From positions 434,001-498,000 of the forward strand of contig NZ_LR134002.1 in the NCBI RefSeq assembly GCF_900635155.1: a stretch of DNA of 64,000 bases, in the 5' to 3' direction. Shown in pieces: positions 41,931-55,517 of this stretch (position 1 is the stretch's first letter; every line of letters starts with the position of its first letter). The DNA is from Streptococcus sanguinis (lineage in GTDB: Bacteria > Bacillota > Bacilli > Lactobacillales > Streptococcaceae). Under the pieces are notes generated by a model, which did not search any database, was not told where the DNA came from, and saw only the letters and a program-made list of their open reading frames with translations. The position numbers were made by a program, and so were the translations under genes.

Positions 41931-44900
41931 ATGAGAACAAGAGCAGACCAAATTAAATTTTCTGAATTAACTCGCGTCCAAATTCCTGCTGTACTTCACT
42001 TAATTCGGATGGGCTATACCTATCTGTCTCGTAAAAGCCAAGAAATTGTTGAAAGGGATCCTGAAACGAATATTTTGGTATCTATTTTTAGAGAACAGTA
42101 CCTTAAGTTGAATAATTATGCAACAGATATGGACTTTGAACGAGATTTAAATAATATCAAGCTAGAATTGAATCAAAATGATTTGGGGCGAGCTTTCTAT
42201 AATCGTTTTCAGGGGAATGAAGGGGGAACCTACATTGATTGGAACAATCTGGAAGAGAACACTTTTCATGTAGCCTTGGAAGTTTCTTGTAAAAATGGCA
42301 ATGATGAGTTCAGACCAGATGTGATGGTTTTCATTAATGGCTTGCCGCTCTCTTATATTGAGGTGAAACAGCCCAATGCGATTAGAGATGGGAAAACAGG
42401 TATTCAATCCGAGCAGGATAGAACAAGATATCGCTTTGAAAACAAGAAATTTCGCCGTTTCAATAATATAACACAATTTATTACCTTTTCAGATAATTCA
42501 TCTTATGTGAGTGGGCAAGGAGGCCAAAGACAGGGGTCTTATTATTGTTCAAACTCCTTTTCTAAGACAAAATTCAATGCCTTTAAAGAAGAAAGGGAGG
42601 CTGATTTTCTTCATGCTTTTCAGTCTCTAACTCAGGAAGATATTGAAAATGTTTTAGCAGATATGAATCAGCTCCCGCTTCAAACCCTTCCAGAGTTTGC
42701 AACAAATATGCAGCCGGATACCCCATGCAATTCGTTTCTGACTTCTATTTACCAAAAAGAGCGTCTCTTTTTTATGTTGCGTTTTGGTCTTGCTTATGTT
42801 GAGGAAGAAGGTAAGGACGGGCAACGCCAACTACAAAAGCATGTAATGCGCTATCCGCAATATTTTGCTACCCGAGCTATCAAAGATATGATTTCAAAGG
42901 GTATTAAAAAGGGTGTTATTTGGCATACTCAAGGTTCGGGTAAGACAGCCTTGGCTTATTTTAATATTCGTTATTTAAAAAATTATTTTTCAAAACAACG
43001 TATTATTCCAAAATTCTATTTTGTTGTTGATCGCTTAGATTTAGCTGACCAAGCCTATAGAGAGTTTGCTAAGCGAGGTTTACGGGTTAAACGTATCAAT
43101 AAACCAAAAGAATTAAATCAAAAGCAGGATGGCTATGATGTTGCTGTTGTAAATATCCAAAAATTCAAAGACAGCTCTGATTTGAGAGATCGTTCTGGAT
43201 ATGATCTTAGCTGTCAAAATGTTTATTTTATTGATGAGGCTCATAGGTCTTACAATGAACGAGGATCCTATCTGCCAAATCTTTACAACTCGGACAAAGG
43301 TGCTATTAAAATTGCACTAACAGGTACTCCTTTGATTACCTACAAGAAAGATGGACGGACCAAAGAGAGTCATGCAACGACGCGAGATATTTTCGGAAAT
43401 TACATCCATAAATATTACTACAACCAATCTATTGACGATGGCTTTACTCTCCGACTGATGAGAGAAGATATTGAAACCTCATATAAGGAAAATCTTCGGG
43501 TTATAAATGAAGAAATTCAACGTGGTGGACTGTCTAAGGAAGACATCTTTGCCCATCGTAAGTATGTCTCACCAATGTTAGATTTTATCTTAGAAGATTT
43601 CACTAGAGCAAGGGAATTTATTTTTGATGACGATTCTATCGGAGGGATGATTGTTTGCGATTCTTCTAAACAGGCGCGTGAGCTAGAACGTCAACTTGAG
43701 GAACGACGGCGAAATGGTCAAACCAACCTAAGTTCAGCTCTCATTTTGCATGATGAAGGGGATAAGGACTATAAGAAAGAAAGGGTGGAAGCATTTAAGG
43801 AAGGCAAGATTGATTTGATTATTGTCTACTCTATGCTTCTAACTGGTTTTGACGCTCCTAGGCTAAAACGTCTTTATTTAGGTCGCAAAATAAAAGCTCA
43901 TAATCTCTTACAAACTCTGACTCGTGTTAATAGACCCTATAAAGATTATTTGTTCGGTTATGTAGTTGACTTTGCAGATATTTCCCAAGAGTTTGATAAG
44001 ACTAATCGAGCCTATCTTGAGGAACTTAATCATGAGTATGATATTACAGTCACTGGTGAAAATGGAGAAGATGTCTTTGGGTCTCTTTTTGTACCCGCTG
44101 ATGAGATTAGTCGAGAATTGGAAAAATCAAATCTTATTTTGATGGATTACCCAACTGGAAATCGAGCGGCCTTTGCAATAGCTGTTGATGAAGTGAAAGA
44201 CAGAAGAGAGTTGATTGAACTCAAAAAAGCGATAGAATCTGTGAAACAGTACTATAACATTGCAAGTCTCCTAGGCTATAAGGAGTTAATGGATCAAATT
44301 GATATCAAATTAATTTCGACTTTTTTGAACATCATCTCCAGAAGATTGATCAACCTTTCTGCTATGGAAAGACCCGATGACTTTTCTAGCCAGGCATTAC
44401 TGAACCTTGCGATGTCAGAAACTAGTTTTTCTTTTGTAAAAATTGCAGAAGAGGAATTGCGATTAGCTGCTAATGATCTGGACGATTTACGTCGGCGGGT
44501 CGCCAATGGACTTAATAACCATAAAGATAAAAAAGATCCTGAATGGGTTCAACTTTTTGAAGAGTTCAAGCGAATTATGAAAAAACATATGATCCATGAG
44601 GAAGAAGGATACACCATGGATGTTATTCTGCATACCAAAGAGGCTTATCATAAACTTTTTGGAGCAGTTGATGATTATCGAACTCGTATGAGACGTTTGA
44701 CAATGAATTTTGATGGAGATGAGATGGCTGCTAGAAGCTATAAGCATGCAACGAACTCGTCCAAAGTTAGTGCTTTTCCTGCAGTTTATCATGTCATCAA
44801 GGGAGCTAAAATTCAGATTGATAGACTAGTTGGTCAAAATCAAGGCGTACTAGATAATGAGGCTTTTCTAAAAAGGATGATTAGTCAGGCAGCTCGCGAG

Positions 44901-45002
44901 GAAATGAAAAAAACAAAATTAAACAGTAGTTTGACCAGAGAAAATTTTGAAAAACTCGTGGAATCACTGTTTGAACAATATGAAGAGGAATACCAACATT
45001 AA
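41931..45002 (+). CDS. hsdR: Type I restriction enzyme, R subunit
   Basis: Motor and nuclease subunit that translocates and cuts unmodified DNA. The 1023-residue protein has the PD-(D/E)xK nuclease site (Asp130 and EVK at 144-146), Walker A TQGSGKTA with Lys338, a DEAH box (IDEAHRSYNERGSY), and helicase motifs TGTPLI, SMLLTGFDAPRL and TLTRVNRPYK. It is followed without a gap by hsdM (1-base overlap). The upstream ribosome site (AAGGG) is weak. Composition is AT-richer than the housekeeping genes, which fits horizontal acquisition. Confidence 0.96.
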   Translation: MRTRADQIKFSELTRVQIPAVLHLIRMGYTYLSRKSQEIVERDPETNILVSIFREQYLKLNNYATDMDFERDLNNIKLELNQNDLGRAFYNRFQGNEGGTYIDWNNLEENTFHVALEVSCKNGNDEFRPDVMVFINGLPLSYIEVKQPNAIRDGKTGIQSEQDRTRYRFENKKFRRFNNITQFITFSDNSSYVSGQGGQRQGSYYCSNSFSKTKFNAFKEEREADFLHAFQSLTQEDIENVLADMNQLPLQTLPEFATNMQPDTPCNSFLTSIYQKERLFFMLRFGLAYVEEEGKDGQRQLQKHVMRYPQYFATRAIKDMISKGIKKGVIWHTQGSGKTALAYFNIRYLKNYFSKQRIIPKFYFVVDRLDLADQAYREFAKRGLRVKRINKPKELNQKQDGYDVAVVNIQKFKDSSDLRDRSGYDLSCQNVYFIDEAHRSYNERGSYLPNLYNSDKGAIKIALTGTPLITYKKDGRTKESHATTRDIFGNYIHKYYYNQSIDDGFTLRLMREDIETSYKENLRVINEEIQRGGLSKEDIFAHRKYVSPMLDFILEDFTRAREFIFDDDSIGGMIVCDSSKQARELERQLEERRRNGQTNLSSALILHDEGDKDYKKERVEAFKEGKIDLIIVYSMLLTGFDAPRLKRLYLGRKIKAHNLLQTLTRVNRPYKDYLFGYVVDFADISQEFDKTNRAYLEELNHEYDITVTGENGEDVFGSLFVPADEISRELEKSNLILMDYPTGNRAAFAIAVDEVKDRRELIELKKAIESVKQYYNIASLLGYKELMDQIDIKLISTFLNIISRRLINLSAMERPDDFSSQALLNLAMSETSFSFVKIAEEELRLAANDLDDLRRRVANGLNNHKDKKDPEWVQLFEEFKRIMKKHMIHEEEGYTMDVILHTKEAYHKLFGAVDDYRTRMRRLTMNFDGDEMAARSYKHATNSSKVSAFPAVYHVIKGAKIQIDRLVGQNQGVLDNEAFLKRMISQAAREEMKKTKLNSSLTRENFEKLVESLFEQYEEEYQH

Positions 45003-46609
45003 TGAATGAGAAATACAAAAATCTTGTCCAAGATTTAGTTGATGATTTAAAAGCTGTTTTTACACATGCTGGTTTAGGAGGAGAGGCTGGTGAATACAAG
45101 CTTCTTACCCAATCGTTCTTATATAAATTTTTAAATGATAAGTTTCTCTATGAGGCAAAGGCAGTAGATGCTAAGAATATCTATGAGGAACTTATTAAGA
45201 TGAGCGATGATGATTATAGCTGGCTCTTGGAAGATATCGGCACTGCGACTGCTCAGCTCAAACCTGAGCAGTTCATTGAGACTTTGCATCGTAAGCAAAA
45301 TGAAGATGATTTCTATGAGACGTTTGAAAATACTCTCAACCAGATCGCTATTGACAATAACGATATTTTCTCCGTTCATACTGACGGGGATACGGCTATT
45401 CGTCTCTTTGACGAGCGTTTGATTACAGATACCATCTCAGATAGCAGTAAGCGCAACGAGGTCGCAAAGTCTATCATCAATCTCCTAGCCCGTATCAAGT
45501 TTGACGAAGATATTTTTTCACAAGGCTTTGACTTTTTCTCTACTCTTTTTGAGTACATGATCAAGGACTACAACAAAGACGGTGGTGGCAAGTATGCCGA
45601 GTACTACACACCTCACTCAGTCGCTAAGATTATCGCGGATATCCTGGTAGGCCATGACCAGCCGTCAAATGTGCGCATCTACGACCCCTCAGCTGGGTCG
45701 GGAACCTTGCTCATGAACCTGGCTAGTCGTATCGGTGTGGATAAGACTACGGTCTATAGTCAGGACATCTCGCAGAAGTCCTCTAATCTTCTCCGTCTCA
45801 ATCTGATCTTGAATGGCCTCCAACACTCCATCCATAATATCGTACAGGGAAATACTATCACTGCTAACCGCCATCCTGAAAAGATGGACTATATCGTGTC
45901 TAATCCTCCTTTCAAGCTGGACTTTTCAGAGTGGCGTGACCGCGTGGAGGCCGTGCCAGAGGCCAGTGAGCGATTCTTTGCAGGGGTGCCAAAGGTTCCT
46001 GCAAAGTCTAAGGATAAGATGGCCATTTATGAGCTCTTTGTCCAACATATCATCTATTCTTTGAAAGCAGATGGCCAAGCAGCCGTTGTCTTACCGACAG
46101 GCTTTATCACTGCCCAGTCAGGGATTGACAAGACCATCCGCCAACACTTGGTGGACCATCAAATGCTGGCAGGTGTCGTGTCTATGCCGTCCAATATCTT
46201 TGCGACGACAGGTACCAACGTTTCCATCCTCTTTATCGATAAGAAAAACAAGGGCGATGTCGTCCTGATCGATGCTTCAAACCTAGGAATCAAGGTCAAG
46301 GAAGGTAAGAACCAAAAGACCGTGCTCTCTCCAGAAGAAGAGCAGAAGATCATCGAGACCTTTATCCAGAAAGAAGCCGTCGAAGACTTTTCTGTCACGG
46401 TCTCTTATGAGGAAATCAAGGAGAAAAACTACTCTCTCAGCGCAGGTCAATACTTTGACATCAAGATTGACTATGTAGACATCACAGCAGAAGAGTTTGA
46501 AGCTAAGATGACCGCCTTTCAAAACAAACTCTCAGACCTCTTCCAGCAATCGCATGCACTGGAGCTGGAGATAGAAGAGCAGATGAAGGGGTTGAAGTAT
46601 GAAGCTTAG
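45002..46609 (+). CDS. hsdM: Type I restriction-modification, M subunit (N6-adenine methylase)
   Basis: Methylates adenine in the recognised sequence together with HsdS. The 535-residue protein has an N-terminal HsdM_N helical domain, SAM motif I DPSAGSGTLLMN (about residues 230-241) and catalytic SNPPF with N301-P-P-F304. By eye the first 250 bases are AT-rich while the middle and end are clearly GC-richer than hsdR, suggesting a recombinant gene. It overlaps hsdS by 11 bases. Confidence 0.96.
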   Translation: MNEKYKNLVQDLVDDLKAVFTHAGLGGEAGEYKLLTQSFLYKFLNDKFLYEAKAVDAKNIYEELIKMSDDDYSWLLEDIGTATAQLKPEQFIETLHRKQNEDDFYETFENTLNQIAIDNNDIFSVHTDGDTAIRLFDERLITDTISDSSKRNEVAKSIINLLARIKFDEDIFSQGFDFFSTLFEYMIKDYNKDGGGKYAEYYTPHSVAKIIADILVGHDQPSNVRIYDPSAGSGTLLMNLASRIGVDKTTVYSQDISQKSSNLLRLNLILNGLQHSIHNIVQGNTITANRHPEKMDYIVSNPPFKLDFSEWRDRVEAVPEASERFFAGVPKVPAKSKDKMAIYELFVQHIIYSLKADGQAAVVLPTGFITAQSGIDKTIRQHLVDHQMLAGVVSMPSNIFATTGTNVSILFIDKKNKGDVVLIDASNLGIKVKEGKNQKTVLSPEEEQKIIETFIQKEAVEDFSVTVSYEEIKEKNYSLSAGQYFDIKIDYVDITAEEFEAKMTAFQNKLSDLFQQSHALELEIEEQMKGLKYEA

Positions 46610-47807
46610 ATGTTTAGGAGATTTTGTCGAGTTACGACAAGGGTTGGCAATTAATAAAGGTAGTGCCCATCTTGTTTCTGACATTCAAGATATTACTTAT
46701 TGCTACCCATTGTTGAGAATTGCTGATATGATGGATTCAAATTTTAGTAAGTTTGTATCCAAAGATGTTAATAGCTCAGTGATAGCTAACCCTCAGGATA
46801 TTATTTATACTAGAACTGGTCAGATTGGACTTGCATTTAGAGGTATGCAAGGAGTAGTTCATAACAATTCATTTATTGTGTCGTTAAAAACTGATGAACT
46901 TGAAAAGGATTATTTATATACTGTTTTAAATTCTAATTTTGTTAAAAAGCAAGCCAATTCACAAGCTAAAAACTCAGTACAACCGGATTTGACGCATACA
47001 ATGTTTAAATCTATAGTTATACCGGTACCTGATTCTAGGGAAGAACAAAATAGAATTTCAAAAAATATTAATAATATTAATCAAAAAATCCGAACCAACA
47101 TCCAAATCAACCAAGAGTTGGAAGCTATGGCCAAGACTCTCTATGACTACTGGTTTGTCCAGTTTGATTTCCCAGACCAGAATGGCAAACCCTACAAATC
47201 AAGTGGCGGCAAGATGGTCTATCACCCAGAACTCAAACGCGAAATCCCAGAGGGGTGGGGAGTGGAGAATCTTTTTAATGTCGCAGAAGTTCAGTATGGC
47301 TATCCTTTTAGTACTGATTATTTTAATAGTACCGGCGAAGGTGTTCCGGTGATTAGAATTAGAGACATTCTTGGAAATGATATCACTAATTATTCTACAG
47401 AAGAAGTAGAAGATAAATATAAAATTAATGTTGGTGATGTTTTAATTGGTATGGATGGGAATTTCCATATGAATTATTGGATTAAAGAGGATTGTTATCT
47501 TAATCAACGAGTTGTAAAAGTAAATAGTGATAAATTACCTAATATGGTACTTAAATATCAGATTGAACCTTTTATCAAATTGCGAGAAAAATCAGTCTCA
47601 AGAACAACAGTAGGTCATTTAAGTGATAAAGATTTAAAAGCAATCAATGTTATTATACCTAAAGATAAATATTTATATTCAATTTTTGAAAGGTTTGAAA
47701 GTATATTAAATAATATTATAAAAAATCAGCAACAAAACCAAGAACTCACCCAACTTCGCGATTGGCTCTTGCCAATGCTGATGAATGGGCAGGTGAGGGT
47801 GGAGTAG
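46599..47807 (+). CDS. hsdS: Type I restriction-modification, S (specificity) subunit
   Basis: Defines the bipartite target sequence. The 402-residue protein has two target recognition domains (about residues 1-150 and 215-360) and two conserved helical spacers: a central one (IRTNIQINQELEAMAKTLYD) and a C-terminal one (NQQQNQELTQLRDWLLPMLM). The spacers are GC-richer, the recognition domains very AT-rich, the usual mark of domain exchange. No second hsdS or recombinase is nearby, so it is not an inverting system here. Confidence 0.94.
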   Translation: MKLRCLGDFVELRQGLAINKGSAHLVSDIQDITYCYPLLRIADMMDSNFSKFVSKDVNSSVIANPQDIIYTRTGQIGLAFRGMQGVVHNNSFIVSLKTDELEKDYLYTVLNSNFVKKQANSQAKNSVQPDLTHTMFKSIVIPVPDSREEQNRISKNINNINQKIRTNIQINQELEAMAKTLYDYWFVQFDFPDQNGKPYKSSGGKMVYHPELKREIPEGWGVENLFNVAEVQYGYPFSTDYFNSTGEGVPVIRIRDILGNDITNYSTEEVEDKYKINVGDVLIGMDGNFHMNYWIKEDCYLNQRVVKVNSDKLPNMVLKYQIEPFIKLREKSVSRTTVGHLSDKDLKAINVIIPKDKYLYSIFERFESILNNIIKNQQQNQELTQLRDWLLPMLMNGQVRVE

Positions 47808-47857: not shown

Positions 47858-48691
47858 ATGTCAGAGCTTACTTTTTCTATATGGAAACCATTTATTAAAA
47901 GTGAAAAAAGAGGGGAGAGGCGGTTACAGCCTATTTTAAAGAATTTTGATAAGTTGAACCCATGTGATTTAAAACACGAAAAAGGGTTATATCATCTAGA
48001 GGTTGATAAAAATAAGCATTATGTTTTTTTAGTTATAGAATCTGGAAAGTTAGAGCCCAGAGATACTACTGTAACGGACTATTATACAAATCAAAAACGT
48101 GAAAATCCTAAATCAGAAACGGAGCTGGAGTTTCTGAAGCAATTCTTTGTCTTATTCGATTTGGATAATAATTTATTGTATTTTTCGGATGTGAGACACC
48201 GTAATTTGCTAGAAAAAATTCTTAAAAATACAACAGGGTTTGAGTTTAGCATAAAAGGTTTTTACGAAGATAAAGAGGAATTTTTTAAAATATTATCTAG
48301 TGTTGATGAAATTCAGTTTACTTCAAAAGATAATATTTTTGCAACTTTATCACAAAAACGCGAAGCTCTATATGATTTATTTGAAACTGATGGTTTAGAA
48401 GATTTAACTCTGAACGTAAAGCTCTCTAGTATGAAAATAAACAAAATCAAAACATTTCTCAGAAGAATTGTAAAAGAGTCTGAGAATCATCAACTTTCAG
48501 GTATCTTAATTAGAGGAAACGATGATGCTGGATTTGAACATGTGTTTAACCGTGGTACGTTTATCAAAAAGATTTCAATTAATGTCGAGAAACAACATGC
48601 AACTGGGAAATTTTTAGGATCAGAGGTAAAAGATATTTTGCTCAAAGAAATAGAGAGTTTATCAAATGAGAAAGTTACGAAAAAAAGATAG
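47858..48691 (+). CDS. Unrecognised soluble protein downstream of hsdS
   Basis: A 277-residue, charged, probably cytoplasmic protein without signal peptide or membrane segment. I do not recognise the family with confidence. Visible features: a region with TVTDYYTNQKRENPKSETELEF, then a hydrophobic strand pattern FFVLFDLDNNLLYFSD (about residues 91-106), a Lys/Glu-rich middle, and a basic end KVTKKR. It is very AT-rich, follows hsdS by 50 bases, and overlaps the next gene by 26 bases. The pairing with a four-helix membrane protein behind a restriction system suggests an accessory defence module (inference). Confidence 0.6.
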   Translation: MSELTFSIWKPFIKSEKRGERRLQPILKNFDKLNPCDLKHEKGLYHLEVDKNKHYVFLVIESGKLEPRDTTVTDYYTNQKRENPKSETELEFLKQFFVLFDLDNNLLYFSDVRHRNLLEKILKNTTGFEFSIKGFYEDKEEFFKILSSVDEIQFTSKDNIFATLSQKREALYDLFETDGLEDLTLNVKLSSMKINKIKTFLRRIVKESENHQLSGILIRGNDDAGFEHVFNRGTFIKKISINVEKQHATGKFLGSEVKDILLKEIESLSNEKVTKKR

Positions 48692-49079
48692 AAATATTTC
48701 TGGTGGTATTTTAGTAATAAGTCTGTTTGTATCATATTTATTAAGGGATTATGTGCTACTAAATCATAGCGACACAGTATCTTTTATTTCTGTAATCACA
48801 GGTTTTCTACTTTCTGCTATTGCTATATTGTATTCCTCTCCTATGCGATCTGTCTTATATGATAAAAAATCAAACATTTATTCATCAAAATGGGAAGAAA
48901 TAATTGTTAGATATTTCTATACATTTGTAGTTAGTTTACTTTATATGATGGAGTTATCTTTAAATATTAATTGTATTCCAAATTTTATAAATGTAGGTTT
49001 TTTACTAAGTATTGTAACTATAATAATTGTAGTTACTCAAGGATTGTTTAAATTACTTTTAGTTGAGATAAATGATTAA
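48666..49079 (+). CDS. Unrecognised four-helix membrane protein
   Basis: A 137-residue protein with a basic N-terminus (MRKLRKKDR) and four predicted membrane segments at about residues 12-30, 38-58, 83-105 and 107-133. It starts inside the preceding gene (26-base overlap), so the two are translationally coupled and probably act together. Small multi-helix membrane proteins are frequent effectors in anti-phage systems; here that is inference. Followed by a strong terminator at 49162. Confidence 0.6.
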   Translation: MRKLRKKDRNISGGILVISLFVSYLLRDYVLLNHSDTVSFISVITGFLLSAIAILYSSPMRSVLYDKKSNIYSSKWEEIIVRYFYTFVVSLLYMMELSLNINCIPNFINVGFLLSIVTIIIVVTQGLFKLLLVEIND

Positions 49080-49161
49080 TTTTTTTGAATTCAATTTTTA
49101 TCAACGATTATATCTTTAATCATATTACAAAGTTTAATGTCTTGTTTTTGTATTCATTATC

Positions 49162-49199
49162 CCAGCCAAATCAAGCTTTGGCTGGCTTTTATTTTTTAT
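49162..49199 (+). terminator. Terminator of the hsd/accessory operon
   Basis: CCAGCCAAA, loop TCAAGC, TTTGGCTGG, then CTTTTATTTTTTATT. Confidence 0.85.
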
Positions 49200-49253: not shown

Positions 49254-49592
49254 ATGAAGCTTATCTATACAAACAAAACTGTTAAAAAGCAGTGCACAGA
49301 GCTAAGGCAAGCGAAAAAGGATTTTTCGGATAAGGTTGCGGTAAAGTTGCATCAATTGATCAATTTTTTTGAAGCGGCGGATTCTTTGGCTAGTGTGACA
49401 GCTTTTCCTAAATATCACTTTCACCAACTCAAGGGAAAGAGACAAGGTCAGTTTGCTTTGGATATAGATGGTAGGAAAAGTTCCTATCGGTTGATTGTCG
49501 GTTTTCGTGAAGAGGATCTAGAAAAGGTCTTTTCCAGTCCTGTTGAAATCGAAATCCTAAAAATAGAGGAGGTCAGCAATCACTATGAGTAA
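49254..49592 (+). CDS. higB: HigB-like toxin of the RelE superfamily
   Basis: A 112-residue protein resembling HigB/RelE-type mRNA interferases: FHQLKGKRQGQFALDIDGRKSSYRLIVGF (about residues 56-84) is the beta-sheet core with conserved Lys/Arg. AGAAAGGAA precedes the ATG. Toxin-first order and an 8-base overlap with a HTH gene are the HigBA arrangement. Activity is inferred from the family. Confidence 0.82.
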   Translation: MKLIYTNKTVKKQCTELRQAKKDFSDKVAVKLHQLINFFEAADSLASVTAFPKYHFHQLKGKRQGQFALDIDGRKSSYRLIVGFREEDLEKVFSSPVEIEILKIEEVSNHYE

Positions 49593-50670
49593 TAAAATTG
49601 TTGAGTACAAAGACCTGATTGCTTTTCATCCAGGTCAGTATGTTGGAGAGTTGATTGAAGATTATAACGTAACGCAAAAAGAATTTGCGGAGCGTTTAGG
49701 AGTTTCTGCAAAGACTGTCAGCAAGCTTGTCAATGCTGAGGAGTCCATTAGTAAAGAGACGGCTCATAAGTTAGCCAAGCTAAGCGGAGTTTCCATGCAA
49801 ACTTGGCTCAATCTTCAAAATGCTTACGATGTAAAAGTGGCAGAGATTGTAGAACAAAAAGAGCTAGAAGAAGGTTATGAGAAAGAAATCTGTGAGATGA
49901 TTGATTTCAAGTATTTTAAGGAAAAAGGCTACGTTCCAGACAAACGCTATAGTTTGAAGGAAAAGATTGTCGAGCTTCGCAAGATTCTAAGTGTGGCAAG
50001 TTTAGAAAACCTCTCATCTTTTAACCATCTAGTCAGCTATCGGAATACGCGTGAGTTTACGACTAAAAGTATAGTCAACTCCAATATCATGCTGGAGTTG
50101 GCATCTAAAAAAGCGCGTGATATAACGAGCACTAAGCTCAATCGCAGAAAGCTTGAGAGAAGCTTACCTGCTTTGAGAAAGTTGACCAGACAAGATCCTG
50201 AAGTCTTTCCTCAATGCTTGTATGATATCTTGTTAGACTGTGGTGTTGTCCTAGTCGGTCTACCTGCGTTACCAAATGCTAATTTGAATGGAGCGACTAA
50301 AAAATTCAGTAACGGTAGTGCCTTGCTTTTACTCACAGATAGAAATAAAGCATCCGATATTTTCTGGTTCTCACTTTTCCATGAGATTGGGCACATTTTG
50401 GAGAATGATTTTTCATCTGATGCTGGAAATAGTGAGTCATACCTTCGTTCCGAGGAGCAGGCAGACCAGTTTGCAAAAGATCTCTTGATTAGACCTGAAG
50501 ACTATCAAGCTTTTGTTGAAAAAGGGAACTTTGATAAGTCAGATATCCTTTGCTTTGCTGAGGAAATAGATATTCACCCGAGTATTATCTTAGGTCGTCT
50601 GCAGAAGGAACAGTACCTTGGATATGAGCAGTTTAGAGAATTAAAAGAGAACTATTACTTTGTTTCTTGA
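49585..50670 (+). CDS. higA: HigA-type antitoxin fused to an ImmA/IrrE-like metallopeptidase
   Basis: A 361-residue two-part protein. Residues about 15-85 form an XRE-type helix-turn-helix of the HigA class (TQKEFAERLGVSAKTVSKLVN). Residues about 205-330 carry a zinc peptidase site HEIGH (His266, Glu267, His270) and a downstream EEQADQFAKDLL segment with the likely third ligand, as in ImmA/IrrE. Classical HigA is about 100 residues, so the antitoxin here is a fusion. It could cleave itself or a partner under stress (inference). Confidence 0.82.
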   Translation: MSNKIVEYKDLIAFHPGQYVGELIEDYNVTQKEFAERLGVSAKTVSKLVNAEESISKETAHKLAKLSGVSMQTWLNLQNAYDVKVAEIVEQKELEEGYEKEICEMIDFKYFKEKGYVPDKRYSLKEKIVELRKILSVASLENLSSFNHLVSYRNTREFTTKSIVNSNIMLELASKKARDITSTKLNRRKLERSLPALRKLTRQDPEVFPQCLYDILLDCGVVLVGLPALPNANLNGATKKFSNGSALLLLTDRNKASDIFWFSLFHEIGHILENDFSSDAGNSESYLRSEEQADQFAKDLLIRPEDYQAFVEKGNFDKSDILCFAEEIDIHPSIILGRLQKEQYLGYEQFRELKENYYFVS

Positions 50671-50996: not shown

Positions 50997-53900
50997 ATGC
51001 AAAGACAACGTTTTTCACTCCGTAAATACAAGTTCGGTTTGGCTTCTGTTCTGTTGGGAACTGCTCTGATTTTTGGTGCGGGACAGGCTCAGGCGGATGA
51101 GCAGGCGACAGCTAGTTCGTCAGGGCAAGGTCAGCTATCTACCGCTGTGGTATCAGCGACTGAGCCTGCTTCTCAAACAACTGCACCTGAGAGTCAGCTA
51201 GCAACTCAAGCCCCTGTGGAGAAAGCAGCACCAGCTTCTTCTGAATCGGCTGCTTCAAGTACAGATCAGGCCAGTCAGCCTTCTACGGCAGAGGCTAAGG
51301 AAGCATCTGCAGCTCCTGTAGAGAAAAGTGCGACTTCTTCACCAGAACAGGCTTCTTCAAGTGCTGAGAAGGCAACTCAGCCATCTGCCACAGAGACCAA
51401 GCCAACAGCTCCAGCTAGTCCGACTGTAGACTCTCCGGCAGCCGCAAACTCAGAAAAGCCTGCTACTAATTCTGATGCAGTAGCGGAGTCACCAACTTCT
51501 CGCGATGCTAAGCCAAGTAGCATCAGTACCAATGAGATTATTAAGGTTCCTCAGACCTGGTCTCAAGGCTATAAAGGTCAAGGCCGTGTGGTAGCCATTA
51601 TCGACTCAGGTCTGGATGTCCATCATGAGGTTCTGAAGATCTCTGACCCGTCAAATGCCAAGTATCAGACAGAGGCAGCTCTGGAAGAGGCTAAGAAAAA
51701 GGCCGGTATTGACTACGGTAAATGGTACAACAGCAAGGTTGTCTATGCCTATAACTATATCGACGGTGATGACAATATCAAGGAAAAGAACAGTTATTCG
51801 CATGGTATGCACGTAACAGGGATTACAGCGGGAAATCCCAACAAGAAAGCTCCTAATGATGAGTATGTCTATGGTGTTGCGCCAGAAGCGCAAGTTATGT
51901 TTATGCGGGTCTTCTCAGACCGTCAACGCACAACAAGCGACGCTATCTATATCAAAGCCATTGATGATGCAGTAGCCTTGGGAGCTGATACCATCAATAT
52001 GAGTCTGGGCTCAGCGACAGGATCTACAGTTGATGTCAGCCCTAGTCTGCAGGCCGCTATTGAGCGCGCTCGGGCCAAGGGAGTGAGTGTGATCATTGCG
52101 GCGGGTAATGACAACACCTTCGGAAGTGAATACTCTAAACCGCTGGTTGAAAATCCAGACTATGGTCTAGTTGGCAGTCCTTCAACAGCAGAAAGCTCTA
52201 TCTCAGTCGCTTCTGTCAATAACACTGTTCTGACAGAGGAAGTCATGGAAGTGCGTGGTCTGGAAAAGAACGATAAGCTTTTGAATGGTCATTTCAGCTA
52301 CTCCATGGGTGAGACAAATGCAACCTTTGAAAAGGGCAAGGAATATGAGTATGTCCATGTTGGTCTTGGCCGTGAAGAGGACTTTGCTGGTAAGGATCTG
52401 ACAGGTAAGCTGGCTCTTATCCAGCGTGGTTCCTTTACCTTTGCTGAAAAGGTTAGAAATGCTATCAGCCATGGTGCTGTTGGTGCTCTGATCTACAATA
52501 ATGTCGACGGAGCTAACCTAACGATGAGCTTGGATAGTGAATCTAAAAAGGTTCCATCAGCCTTTATCAGTAAGGAATATGGAGAGGCTTTGGCAGCTGG
52601 TCATTACAAGGTAGTCTTTAATGGTCTTAAGGTCAATCGGCCGCATCTAGGAGCTGGTAGTCTGTCTGACTTCTCTAGTTGGGGTGTAACGACAGATGGC
52701 TTGCTCAAGCCAGATGTGACAGCACCAGGTGGCGATATTTACTCTTCGCTTAATGACAATACCTATGGCTCTATGAAGGGAACCAGTATGGCTACCCCTC
52801 ATGTGGCTGGTGTAGCGGCTCTGGTCAAGGAATATCTCCTTCAGCATTATCCAGACTTAACACCTGCCCAGAATGCCGATTTGGTCAAAGCACTCATCAT
52901 GTCAACTGCTAAGCTGCACGTCAACAAGGAAACAGGTGTCCATACTTCTCCGCGTCAGCAGGGTGCTGGTATCGTGGATACGGCAGCAGCTGTTTCTACC
53001 GGCCTCTATGTGACAGGAGATAACCAATATCCTAGCGTTTCCTTGGGCAATGTCCAAGACAGCTTCACCTTTGATGTTACGGTTCATAATATCACGGATA
53101 AGGATCGGACACTGAAGATGATTGTCAATACCAACACGGATGCGGTCAAGGATGGCTACTTTACCCTGACACCTCGCAAACTAACCGAAACAGTTTGGCC
53201 AGAAGTCACCGTCAAGGCTCACAGCAGCCAGAAAGTGACGGTCAAGGTAAATACTGCTAAGTTTGCGGAAGAGTTGATCAAGCAGATGCCGAACGGCTAT
53301 TTCTTAGAAGGCTTTGTCCGCTTTGTCGATCCAGCAGATGACGGCGATGTTATTAGTCTGCCATTTATGGGCTTCCGTGGGCAATTCCAAGATCTGCCAG
53401 CGTTAGAAAGACCAATCTATGATCTGGTCCAAGAAGGCAAGTCAGGCTTCTATTACCCAGTGCCAGAGGACAAGAGTATCCTATCTGATGACAATGTATC
53501 TTCCCTTGTGACAGAGTCGAATGATACACTCTACTCTACCGGTCGAACAGCTGCTCGCAGCTCAATTGTACTTGGAACTGCAGAAAATGCTGATGGTAAG
53601 CATGTGCTGCAGTTGGGAGCAGATGGCAAGATTCGTCTAGCCTTCTCACCGAATGGAGATGGAAATCAAGACAGCATCCAGTATCGGACAGTTCTCTATC
53701 GCAATATCAATAATCTGACAGCTAGTGTCTATACGGCAGATGATACGGACTATCGCTTCCCAATCTGGCAGAGCAGCACGATTAGAGAAGGCCGCAAGAA
53801 CTATTATAGTGGTCAGTCAGACAATCCTAAGTCCTACCTACTAGAAGATACATACTGGGACGGTCGTGATAGCAAGGGTGAGAAGCTGGAAGATGGCCTC

Positions 53901-55517
53901 TATACCTATGTGGTTCGCTATACGCCAGATGTGCCAGGTGCTAAAGAGCAGCAGATTAGCTTTAACCTGCAGATTGATAATCAGAAGCCTTTGATTAGCT
54001 CAGGCTATATCAGTACCAAGGATGGTGCAGAAACCTTTACAGCTCGTAAGCCAAAAGATGTTGGCAACGGCGGTATTTTGAGAGAACAGGTCTTCTATCT
54101 GCAAGCAGATGAAAAAGGGAAAGAGACCTATAAAGCAGTGGATGATTTTGGCATTGAGCGTGATTACGAGCGTCGGGTTTACATCTCAGCCAATGCGGAT
54201 GGCAGCTACACCTTGCCAAAAGGAGTGGACAAGTCTAAGATATTCTATGTGGTAGAGGATTATGCGGGTAACCGTGATTCCATAGCTTTGTCAGAGCTAG
54301 TCAGTGCTGAAAATGATGGTCGTATCCGTGTCGCTCTGGTGGATGCTAATACGCATCAAGATGTATCTTCGACCTTTGTCTATCGGATCAAGGACAGCAA
54401 GGGCAAATATGTAGAGTTGGATAAGGGCAAGAAAATCAACGCTCTGCCGTTTGGACGCTACACAGCTGAGATCTTTACTTATGATAAGGATGAGCTTCGT
54501 TTCTACAGCGCTCTGACTCAGGAGTTTGAGCTGACAGCCCAAGATAGCTTTAAGACGATTGAGTTTCTGGTCAAGAAGCTGGTCTTTGCACCGGTCAGCG
54601 TTGCCTTTGATCAAGCTGTTCCGAAGAATACCCAAGTGGTTCTCAAGAATAATAATGGCGATGCTTATACGCTTCCAGCAGAACTGTTTGGCAAGCATGC
54701 CTTCGGAAGATCCGTAGCATCTGGATTCTACTCTGTCTTTGTCAACCTGCCGACCGGCTACGAGCTCTGGGAAAGTGAGCCGACTGTTGAGGTCAAAGAG
54801 GGCAAAAACAACCTGCTGAAACTGGGAGTTATCGTCAAGTCAGGCTTGCTGGCGGCTGTCAATCAGCAGTCTAGTCTGGTCGGCACTGCTCAGTATTACA
54901 ATGCTTCTGCAGCGAAGCGCACAGCTTACGACCAAGCATATCAGGCAGCCAAGGAAGCTTTGACAAGTAAACTGACCCAAGCGCAAGTTGATGCCGTAAG
55001 AGCAAAACTAGAAACAGCATCTGCTGATCTAGACGGCAAGGACTCCGATCTTGCTGCGGTTAAAGCAGCTGTGGAAGCTTATGCAGCTACTACTAAGACA
55101 GGAGCTTATGCCAATGCTAAGGATAGGACTCGCCGCGCTTATGACAAGGCCTTCCAAGCAGTGGCTCTGCTCTTGGTGCAGGACAAGGTGACCCAGGAGC
55201 AAATCGATACAGCTCTAGCTCAGCTGACTACAGCAGAGAAGAAGCTGGATGGCAAGGCGACTAACTTTACCAATCTCAAGAAGATAGTCGATGATGAGGT
55301 GCATTACCAAGCCATTAGCAATAAGTTTATCTATGCGAGTGACGCATTGAAGTCGGCTTATCTAGAAGCTTATGCACAGGCTAAGGCAGTCTTGGCGGAT
55401 CCAGGTGCCAGCCAGGAAGATGTCAAAGAAGCTATTGCCAACCTCAAAGAGGCAAAAAGAAAACTCGATGGCAGAAAGCCAAGAGTCGTAAGACCGAAAA
55501 AGCCTAGACAAGCCTAA
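50997..55517 (+). CDS. Secreted subtilisin-family serine protease with C-terminal FIVAR-like repeats
   Basis: A 1506-residue protein related to C5a peptidase/lactocepin proteases. It has a YSIRK-like signal peptide (FSLRKYKFGLASVLLG, cleavage near residue 33), an Ala/Ser/Pro/Thr-rich pro-region to about 175, and a subtilase domain with Asp203, His269 and Ser597 (GTSMATPHVAG); oxyanion Asn371 is in AAGND. An inserted protease-associated domain lies at about 420-545, and Fn3-like domains follow. Three helical repeats with LDGK/LDGR ends lie near 1310-1490. The C-terminus is KPRVVRPKKPRQA: there is no LPxTG motif or membrane anchor. Not frameshifted as far as I can see. Confidence 0.92.
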   Translation: MQRQRFSLRKYKFGLASVLLGTALIFGAGQAQADEQATASSSGQGQLSTAVVSATEPASQTTAPESQLATQAPVEKAAPASSESAASSTDQASQPSTAEAKEASAAPVEKSATSSPEQASSSAEKATQPSATETKPTAPASPTVDSPAAANSEKPATNSDAVAESPTSRDAKPSSISTNEIIKVPQTWSQGYKGQGRVVAIIDSGLDVHHEVLKISDPSNAKYQTEAALEEAKKKAGIDYGKWYNSKVVYAYNYIDGDDNIKEKNSYSHGMHVTGITAGNPNKKAPNDEYVYGVAPEAQVMFMRVFSDRQRTTSDAIYIKAIDDAVALGADTINMSLGSATGSTVDVSPSLQAAIERARAKGVSVIIAAGNDNTFGSEYSKPLVENPDYGLVGSPSTAESSISVASVNNTVLTEEVMEVRGLEKNDKLLNGHFSYSMGETNATFEKGKEYEYVHVGLGREEDFAGKDLTGKLALIQRGSFTFAEKVRNAISHGAVGALIYNNVDGANLTMSLDSESKKVPSAFISKEYGEALAAGHYKVVFNGLKVNRPHLGAGSLSDFSSWGVTTDGLLKPDVTAPGGDIYSSLNDNTYGSMKGTSMATPHVAGVAALVKEYLLQHYPDLTPAQNADLVKALIMSTAKLHVNKETGVHTSPRQQGAGIVDTAAAVSTGLYVTGDNQYPSVSLGNVQDSFTFDVTVHNITDKDRTLKMIVNTNTDAVKDGYFTLTPRKLTETVWPEVTVKAHSSQKVTVKVNTAKFAEELIKQMPNGYFLEGFVRFVDPADDGDVISLPFMGFRGQFQDLPALERPIYDLVQEGKSGFYYPVPEDKSILSDDNVSSLVTESNDTLYSTGRTAARSSIVLGTAENADGKHVLQLGADGKIRLAFSPNGDGNQDSIQYRTVLYRNINNLTASVYTADDTDYRFPIWQSSTIREGRKNYYSGQSDNPKSYLLEDTYWDGRDSKGEKLEDGLYTYVVRYTPDVPGAKEQQISFNLQIDNQKPLISSGYISTKDGAETFTARKPKDVGNGGILREQVFYLQADEKGKETYKAVDDFGIERDYERRVYISANADGSYTLPKGVDKSKIFYVVEDYAGNRDSIALSELVSAENDGRIRVALVDANTHQDVSSTFVYRIKDSKGKYVELDKGKKINALPFGRYTAEIFTYDKDELRFYSALTQEFELTAQDSFKTIEFLVKKLVFAPVSVAFDQAVPKNTQVVLKNNNGDAYTLPAELFGKHAFGRSVASGFYSVFVNLPTGYELWESEPTVEVKEGKNNLLKLGVIVKSGLLAAVNQQSSLVGTAQYYNASAAKRTAYDQAYQAAKEALTSKLTQAQVDAVRAKLETASADLDGKDSDLAAVKAAVEAYAATTKTGAYANAKDRTRRAYDKAFQAVALLLVQDKVTQEQIDTALAQLTTAEKKLDGKATNFTNLKKIVDDEVHYQAISNKFIYASDALKSAYLEAYAQAKAVLADPGASQEDVKEAIANLKEAKRKLDGRKPRVVRPKKPRQA

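Follow-up and report, generated by a model that had tools for sequence, protein, structure and literature searches.

Two overlapping genes directly behind a type I restriction-modification (R-M) operon of Streptococcus sanguinis form a pair that recurs intact in other streptococci, and we think it likely (probability about 0.7) that they make up a RexAB-type anti-phage system of streptococci, resembling a distant relative of RexA/RexB from phage lambda and composed of a sensor and a membrane-damaging partner. The pair, which encodes a soluble protein of 277 amino acids (aa) and a membrane protein of 137 aa, lies in a window of 64,000 nucleotides (the whole stretch analyzed; contig NZ_LR134002.1, positions 434,001 to 498,000), within a host genome that is a single contig of 2,360,223 bases. 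All positions given here are those of the window.

A conserved pair of overlapping genes

The initial annotation had described two AT-rich genes of no nameable family, following hsdS in the same direction with a 26-base overlap and no terminator before 49162, and our analysis agrees in each of these respects. The open reading frame (ORF) positions place both genes 3′ of the end of hsdS at 47807 (Table 1), and the hairpin that closes the unit is the sole terminator-like site on the plus strand from there to 49200. The GC contents of the soluble and membrane genes are 30.1% and 24.8%, compared to 44.4% for hsdM. Hydropathy also bears out the soluble and four-helix assignments, with zero membrane segments in the first protein and hydrophobic regions at residues 13–33, 35–60, 79–105 and 99–137 of the second, the last two of which merge. 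Positive charge at the start of the membrane protein and within its loop following helix 2 suggests that its N and C termini are both on the cytoplasmic side.

Searches of PADLOC and NCBIfam yielded zero families at E ≤ 1 for either protein, and Pfam gave only matches far below cut-offs. Of two single-sequence searches of the PDB, the first found nothing and the second a single match (E 0.59); a 12-row profile retrieved mainly antibody chains, while a 31-row profile gave one match, UPF0343 protein NE1163 (E 0.1). Scanning the 12-row alignment against Pfam and PHROGs produced weak matches only, tblastn against phages and plasmids gave none, and viral contigs gave none either. In the protein database, we found 101 relatives of the soluble protein at E ≤ 0.01, fragments counted. 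For the 31-row alignment, rows were selected from these matches and from our loci, with most near-duplicates and fragments left out; one fused fragment (P0167) was removed between alignments A2 and A3.

The two genes are inherited together. A search of 284 Streptococcus genomes with the soluble protein gave nine matches, of which eight were full-length and one was weak and partial (E 1.8e-4; residues 155–250 within a 1653-codon frame of genome G272), which we dropped as probable chance and do not count among the eight. A profile of the membrane protein identified the identical eight genomes, and the two genes are adjacent in all of them, overlapping by 26 bases in six and by 17 bases in two. 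Identity of the soluble protein extends down to 45–46% (L008, L009) and 33–35% (L010, L011), and that of the membrane protein is 34–37% in these four loci. When we sampled more widely, 395 genomes from 80 genera of the order gave four matches and 398 genomes from 145 genera of the class gave one, all in Streptococcus; as samples, these sets remain compatible with hosts beyond this genus. The ratio of nonsynonymous to synonymous divergence (dN/dS) in comparison with three close relatives (loci L001–L003) was 0.12–0.23 for the soluble gene and 0.08–0.19 for the membrane gene. Based on these low ratios and the recurrence of both genes, with their overlap, in other surroundings, we conclude that the pair comprises genuine genes rather than chance ORFs.

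The pair occurs in several settings. It lies directly behind hsdS in four of the eight genomes (the window, L001 from S. cristatus, L002 from S. taonis and L003 from S. sanguinis), and directly adjacent hsd genes are absent from the other four. In L026, the pair is flanked by an integrase gene and tRNA-Leu within an element carrying a Rep gene; the element in L025 is related but retains just a short remnant of integrase, and its tRNA-Leu is 2.4 kb away. In L027, Stk2 (PADLOC E 4e-183) lies on one side, with an XRE gene directly upstream of the pair, and a type II methyltransferase-like protein (L027:18936–19961; PADLOC E 2e-77) is found ~8 kb from the pair, past Rep and integrase genes. In L028, no defense genes were recognized near the pair, as judged by eye without a family search.

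Sequence divergence points to independent movement. Between the window and L001 or L002, synonymous divergence (dS) is 0.74–0.86 for hsdM and 0.15–0.23 for the pair, whereas relative to L003, from the same species, the values are alike (0.17 for hsdM; 0.14–0.19 for the pair). Moreover, DNA identity with the relatives rises at ~47735, inside the 3′ end of hsdS, and the block of high identity stops at 49099, just past the pair, with L002 but continues across HigB-HigA with L001 and L003. Thus, hsdM and the pair have moved independently of each other, the pair either alone or along with HigB-HigA.

Resemblance to RexAB

The predicted fold of the soluble protein matches RexA across 219 residues, and the model has the two-domain architecture of RexA, a split globular domain with an inserted dimerization domain. 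The RexAB layout, in which a gene for a soluble protein sits next to one for a small membrane protein of four helices, is present in 8 of 8 genomes. As in lambda, the soluble gene comes first, the proteins are of similar length (277 vs. 279 aa for RexA; 137 vs. 144 aa for RexB), and both membrane proteins have a hydrophobic profile of about four segments.

Similarity to lambda RexAB at the sequence level is weak or unclear, and the location differs. An hhalign comparison of the soluble protein with RexA gave a score of 22.5 along a weak stretch, reached by 2 of 200 shuffles, neither on the diagonal, with an hhalign probability of only 1.6; the membrane protein has no clear similarity to RexB, and its score was reached by 71 of 200 shuffles. 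The two genes overlap by 26 bases here, whereas those of lambda are separated by 15 bases. In addition, the pair occupies a chromosomal defense slot, whereas the lambda genes lie in a prophage immunity region, 3′ of a CI-type repressor, a position that is usual but not defining for RexAB; here hsdS is upstream, and the ORF list and Pfam names of the neighbors reveal no CI-type repressor beside the pair. Rex systems sited away from the repressor are also described elsewhere (PMC11077077). The charge of the soluble protein gives no clear hint of DNA binding.

Other Rex-like pairs, which we compare by description, share this layout. The RexAB of Pseudomonas putida prophage P1 (PP_5643/PP_5644) likewise consists of a soluble and a four-helix protein, and was recognized by fold and remote profile, its membrane partner having no detectable homologues (PMC12894663). 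It differs in being prophage-borne and experimentally tested, and its HHpred tie to RexA is firm where the profile tie of the present pair is weak. Butters gp30/gp31, Sbash gp30/gp31 and CarolAnn gp44/gp43 are soluble/membrane pairs of the same type from actinobacteriophages (PMC12894663; PMC11077077). According to PMC12894663, five RexAB-type systems have been described, every one from a phage or prophage. A Foldseek search of viral models with the soluble-protein model returned six matches at E ≤ 0.001, five uncharacterized phage proteins and one named exonuclease. The five (BFVD A0A8S5MSR5, A0A8S5S8L2, A0A8S5QGP5, A0A8S5PCY0 and A0A6J5Q1Z2; E 2e-11 to 2e-7) are possible RexA-fold relatives in phages, judging from the models. 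Also among the nearest known proteins are RdgC and the kinetochore proteins Iml3/Chl4 (CENP-N), which differ in being recombination or kinetochore proteins; we know of no four-helix membrane partner for them. Caution is needed with the name, since RexAB in lactic acid bacteria also denotes an AddAB-type exonuclease.

The initial annotation had proposed an undescribed defense system in which a soluble sensor acts on a membrane effector. The defense and sensor/effector part is supported by the co-inheritance of the genes (the same 8 of 284 genomes), by their company (type I R-M, Stk2, an integrase and a slot shared with Kiwa) and by the RexA-like predicted fold; the same fold and layout suggest the known RexAB type, and the claim of a wholly undescribed kind does not stand. 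Neither outcome that had been named as counting against the proposal was seen: no characterized non-defense family was assigned, and homologues of the two genes occur in linkage. Few phage-exclusion systems have been known for as long as RexAB, and none of the papers listed in our literature searches reports a RexAB-type phage system of Streptococcus in its title or abstract, though one listed review (PMC9311878) contains both words; a passage search of PMC9090908 finds the Rex system named only in the references. If a RexAB-type cassette does reside in streptococcal chromosomes, in a slot shared with Kiwa and other systems, then Rex-like sensing would be a general, exchangeable immune module, and the pair would offer a small system for asking what RexA-fold sensors recognize.

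Proposed mechanism and alternatives

By analogy to RexA, the 277-aa protein would be a DNA-binding dimer, which upon infection might recognize a phage replication or recombination complex and then activate the 137-aa protein. The membrane protein, like RexB of lambda and P. putida, would permeabilize the membrane, such that growth stops and the infection aborts. The gene overlap may hold the two proteins in fixed proportion. The pair appears to travel as its own cassette between defense sites, and in its present location behind the type I restriction system it could serve as a second line. A more specific and rather doubtful version is that the pair is wired to restriction: phage DNA that is broken or recombining after type I restriction has acted or failed would be read by the RexA/RdgC-fold sensor, which would then trigger the membrane effector to halt growth as a back-up. 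If so, a Gram-positive chromosome would carry a RexAB-type system that lies outside prophages and is functionally layered with R-M.

We considered that the roles might be reversed, with the soluble RexA-like protein acting as the growth-stopping effector and held inactive by the membrane protein until infection. Such logic is described for Butters gp30/gp31, which has an equal layout, but the membrane protein is the effector in four of the five RexAB-type systems covered by that account (PMC12894663). The sequences of the pair do not separate the two directions, and we regard this arrangement as improbable. We give still less weight to a Kiwa-like membrane-bound complex, whose membrane partner would control the action of the soluble partner on phage DNA or its replication. 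In 5 of 30 loci, the slot upstream of HigB is filled by KwaB-KwaA, also a soluble protein followed by a small membrane protein, and an active Kiwa with the order kwaB, kwaA is described in S. thermophilus (PMC11514479). However, no KwaA or KwaB (DUF4868) profile in PADLOC matched at E ≤ 1 and the profile comparisons were at shuffle level (37/60 and 38/60), on which grounds we reject membership in Kiwa; moreover, the membrane protein has 137 aa, compared to 191 aa for KwaA of L039.

It is also unlikely, to a degree between these two, that the pair has no anti-phage function and instead stabilizes mobile elements in the manner of a toxin-antitoxin module or serves as an R-M accessory. HigB-HigA adjoins the pair, integrative elements carry it, and half of its copies lie behind hsdS. 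Nevertheless, the other half have no hsd gene directly adjacent, and this, together with the separate histories of the pair and hsdM in the dS comparison with L001 and L002, rules out a fixed R-M subunit; furthermore, the HigB slot otherwise holds mainly defense genes where these can be named.

The slot upstream of HigB and neighboring genes

The slot marked by HigB is variable and often occupied by defense genes, which predominate where its contents are nameable. Of 279 Streptococcus genomes, 35 carry the HigB gene, and 30 HigB loci were taken for survey. Besides the present pair (3 loci) and KwaB-KwaA, the slot held hsdM-like genes (12; 28–31% identity to the window hsdM), a KwaA-like gene with a 334-aa partner (2), a 440-aa unnamed family (3), HEPN-like genes (2), AAA_13/PDC-S06 (1), a 283-aa unnamed protein (1), and an hsdS tail with small ORFs (1). 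Representatives (L032, L039, L044, L047, L048, L052 and L053) were searched with profiles, and the other loci, including the hsdM-like genes, were assigned by similarity.

Table 1. Features of the pair and its surroundings in the window
Feature	Position	Strand	Basis or remark
hsdR, type I restriction subunit	41931..45002	+	Pfam/NCBIfam
hsdM, type I methylase subunit	45002..46609	+	Pfam/NCBIfam
hsdS, type I specificity subunit	46599..47807	+	PADLOC/Pfam; identity to relatives rises at ~47735 in 3′ end
Soluble-protein gene, 277 aa; proposed infection sensor	47858..48691	+	RexA/RdgC-like predicted fold
Membrane-protein gene, 137 aa; proposed effector	48666..49079	+	Four hydrophobic regions; putative RexB-like role
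26-base stretch common to both genes	48666..48691	+	
Intrinsic-terminator-like hairpin closing the unit	49162..49185	+	
HigB/RelE-like protein	49254..49592	+	Pfam and NCBIfam matches below cut-offs; marker of variable slot
HigA-like helix-turn-helix protein with M78 peptidase domain	49585..50670	+	PADLOC PD-Lambda-2_B, E 8e-28

Proteins encoded 5′ of hsdR are 98.6–99.4% identical to those of S. sanguinis SK355, and those 3′ of the slot 92–99.7%. The site is bordered downstream by a 1506-aa ORF (50997–55517), by eye a surface subtilisin-type protease, whose gene is seen in 4 of the 30 loci (with the pair in two, the 440-aa family in one and a HEPN-like gene in one).

Several other occupants of the slot were observed. 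The ~440-aa family (L044:2–1321, L035 and L052, with the L035 frame interrupted) is a candidate defense gene; L044 and L052 gave no match at E ≤ 0.01 in PADLOC, Pfam or NCBIfam. In L032 (1–1366) and L033, a KwaA-like fragment (PADLOC E 1.9e-7) is followed by the 334-aa protein, for which no family matched; this may be a Kiwa variant that uses a different partner. A two-gene unit in L047 (1–1228) and, fragmented, in L041 includes the HEPN-like protein (Pfam PF18735, E 2e-5, below cut-off). Finally, in L050 (1945–3127, minus strand), the hsdS tail is followed by three small ORFs (164, 91 and 98 aa) and then HigB.
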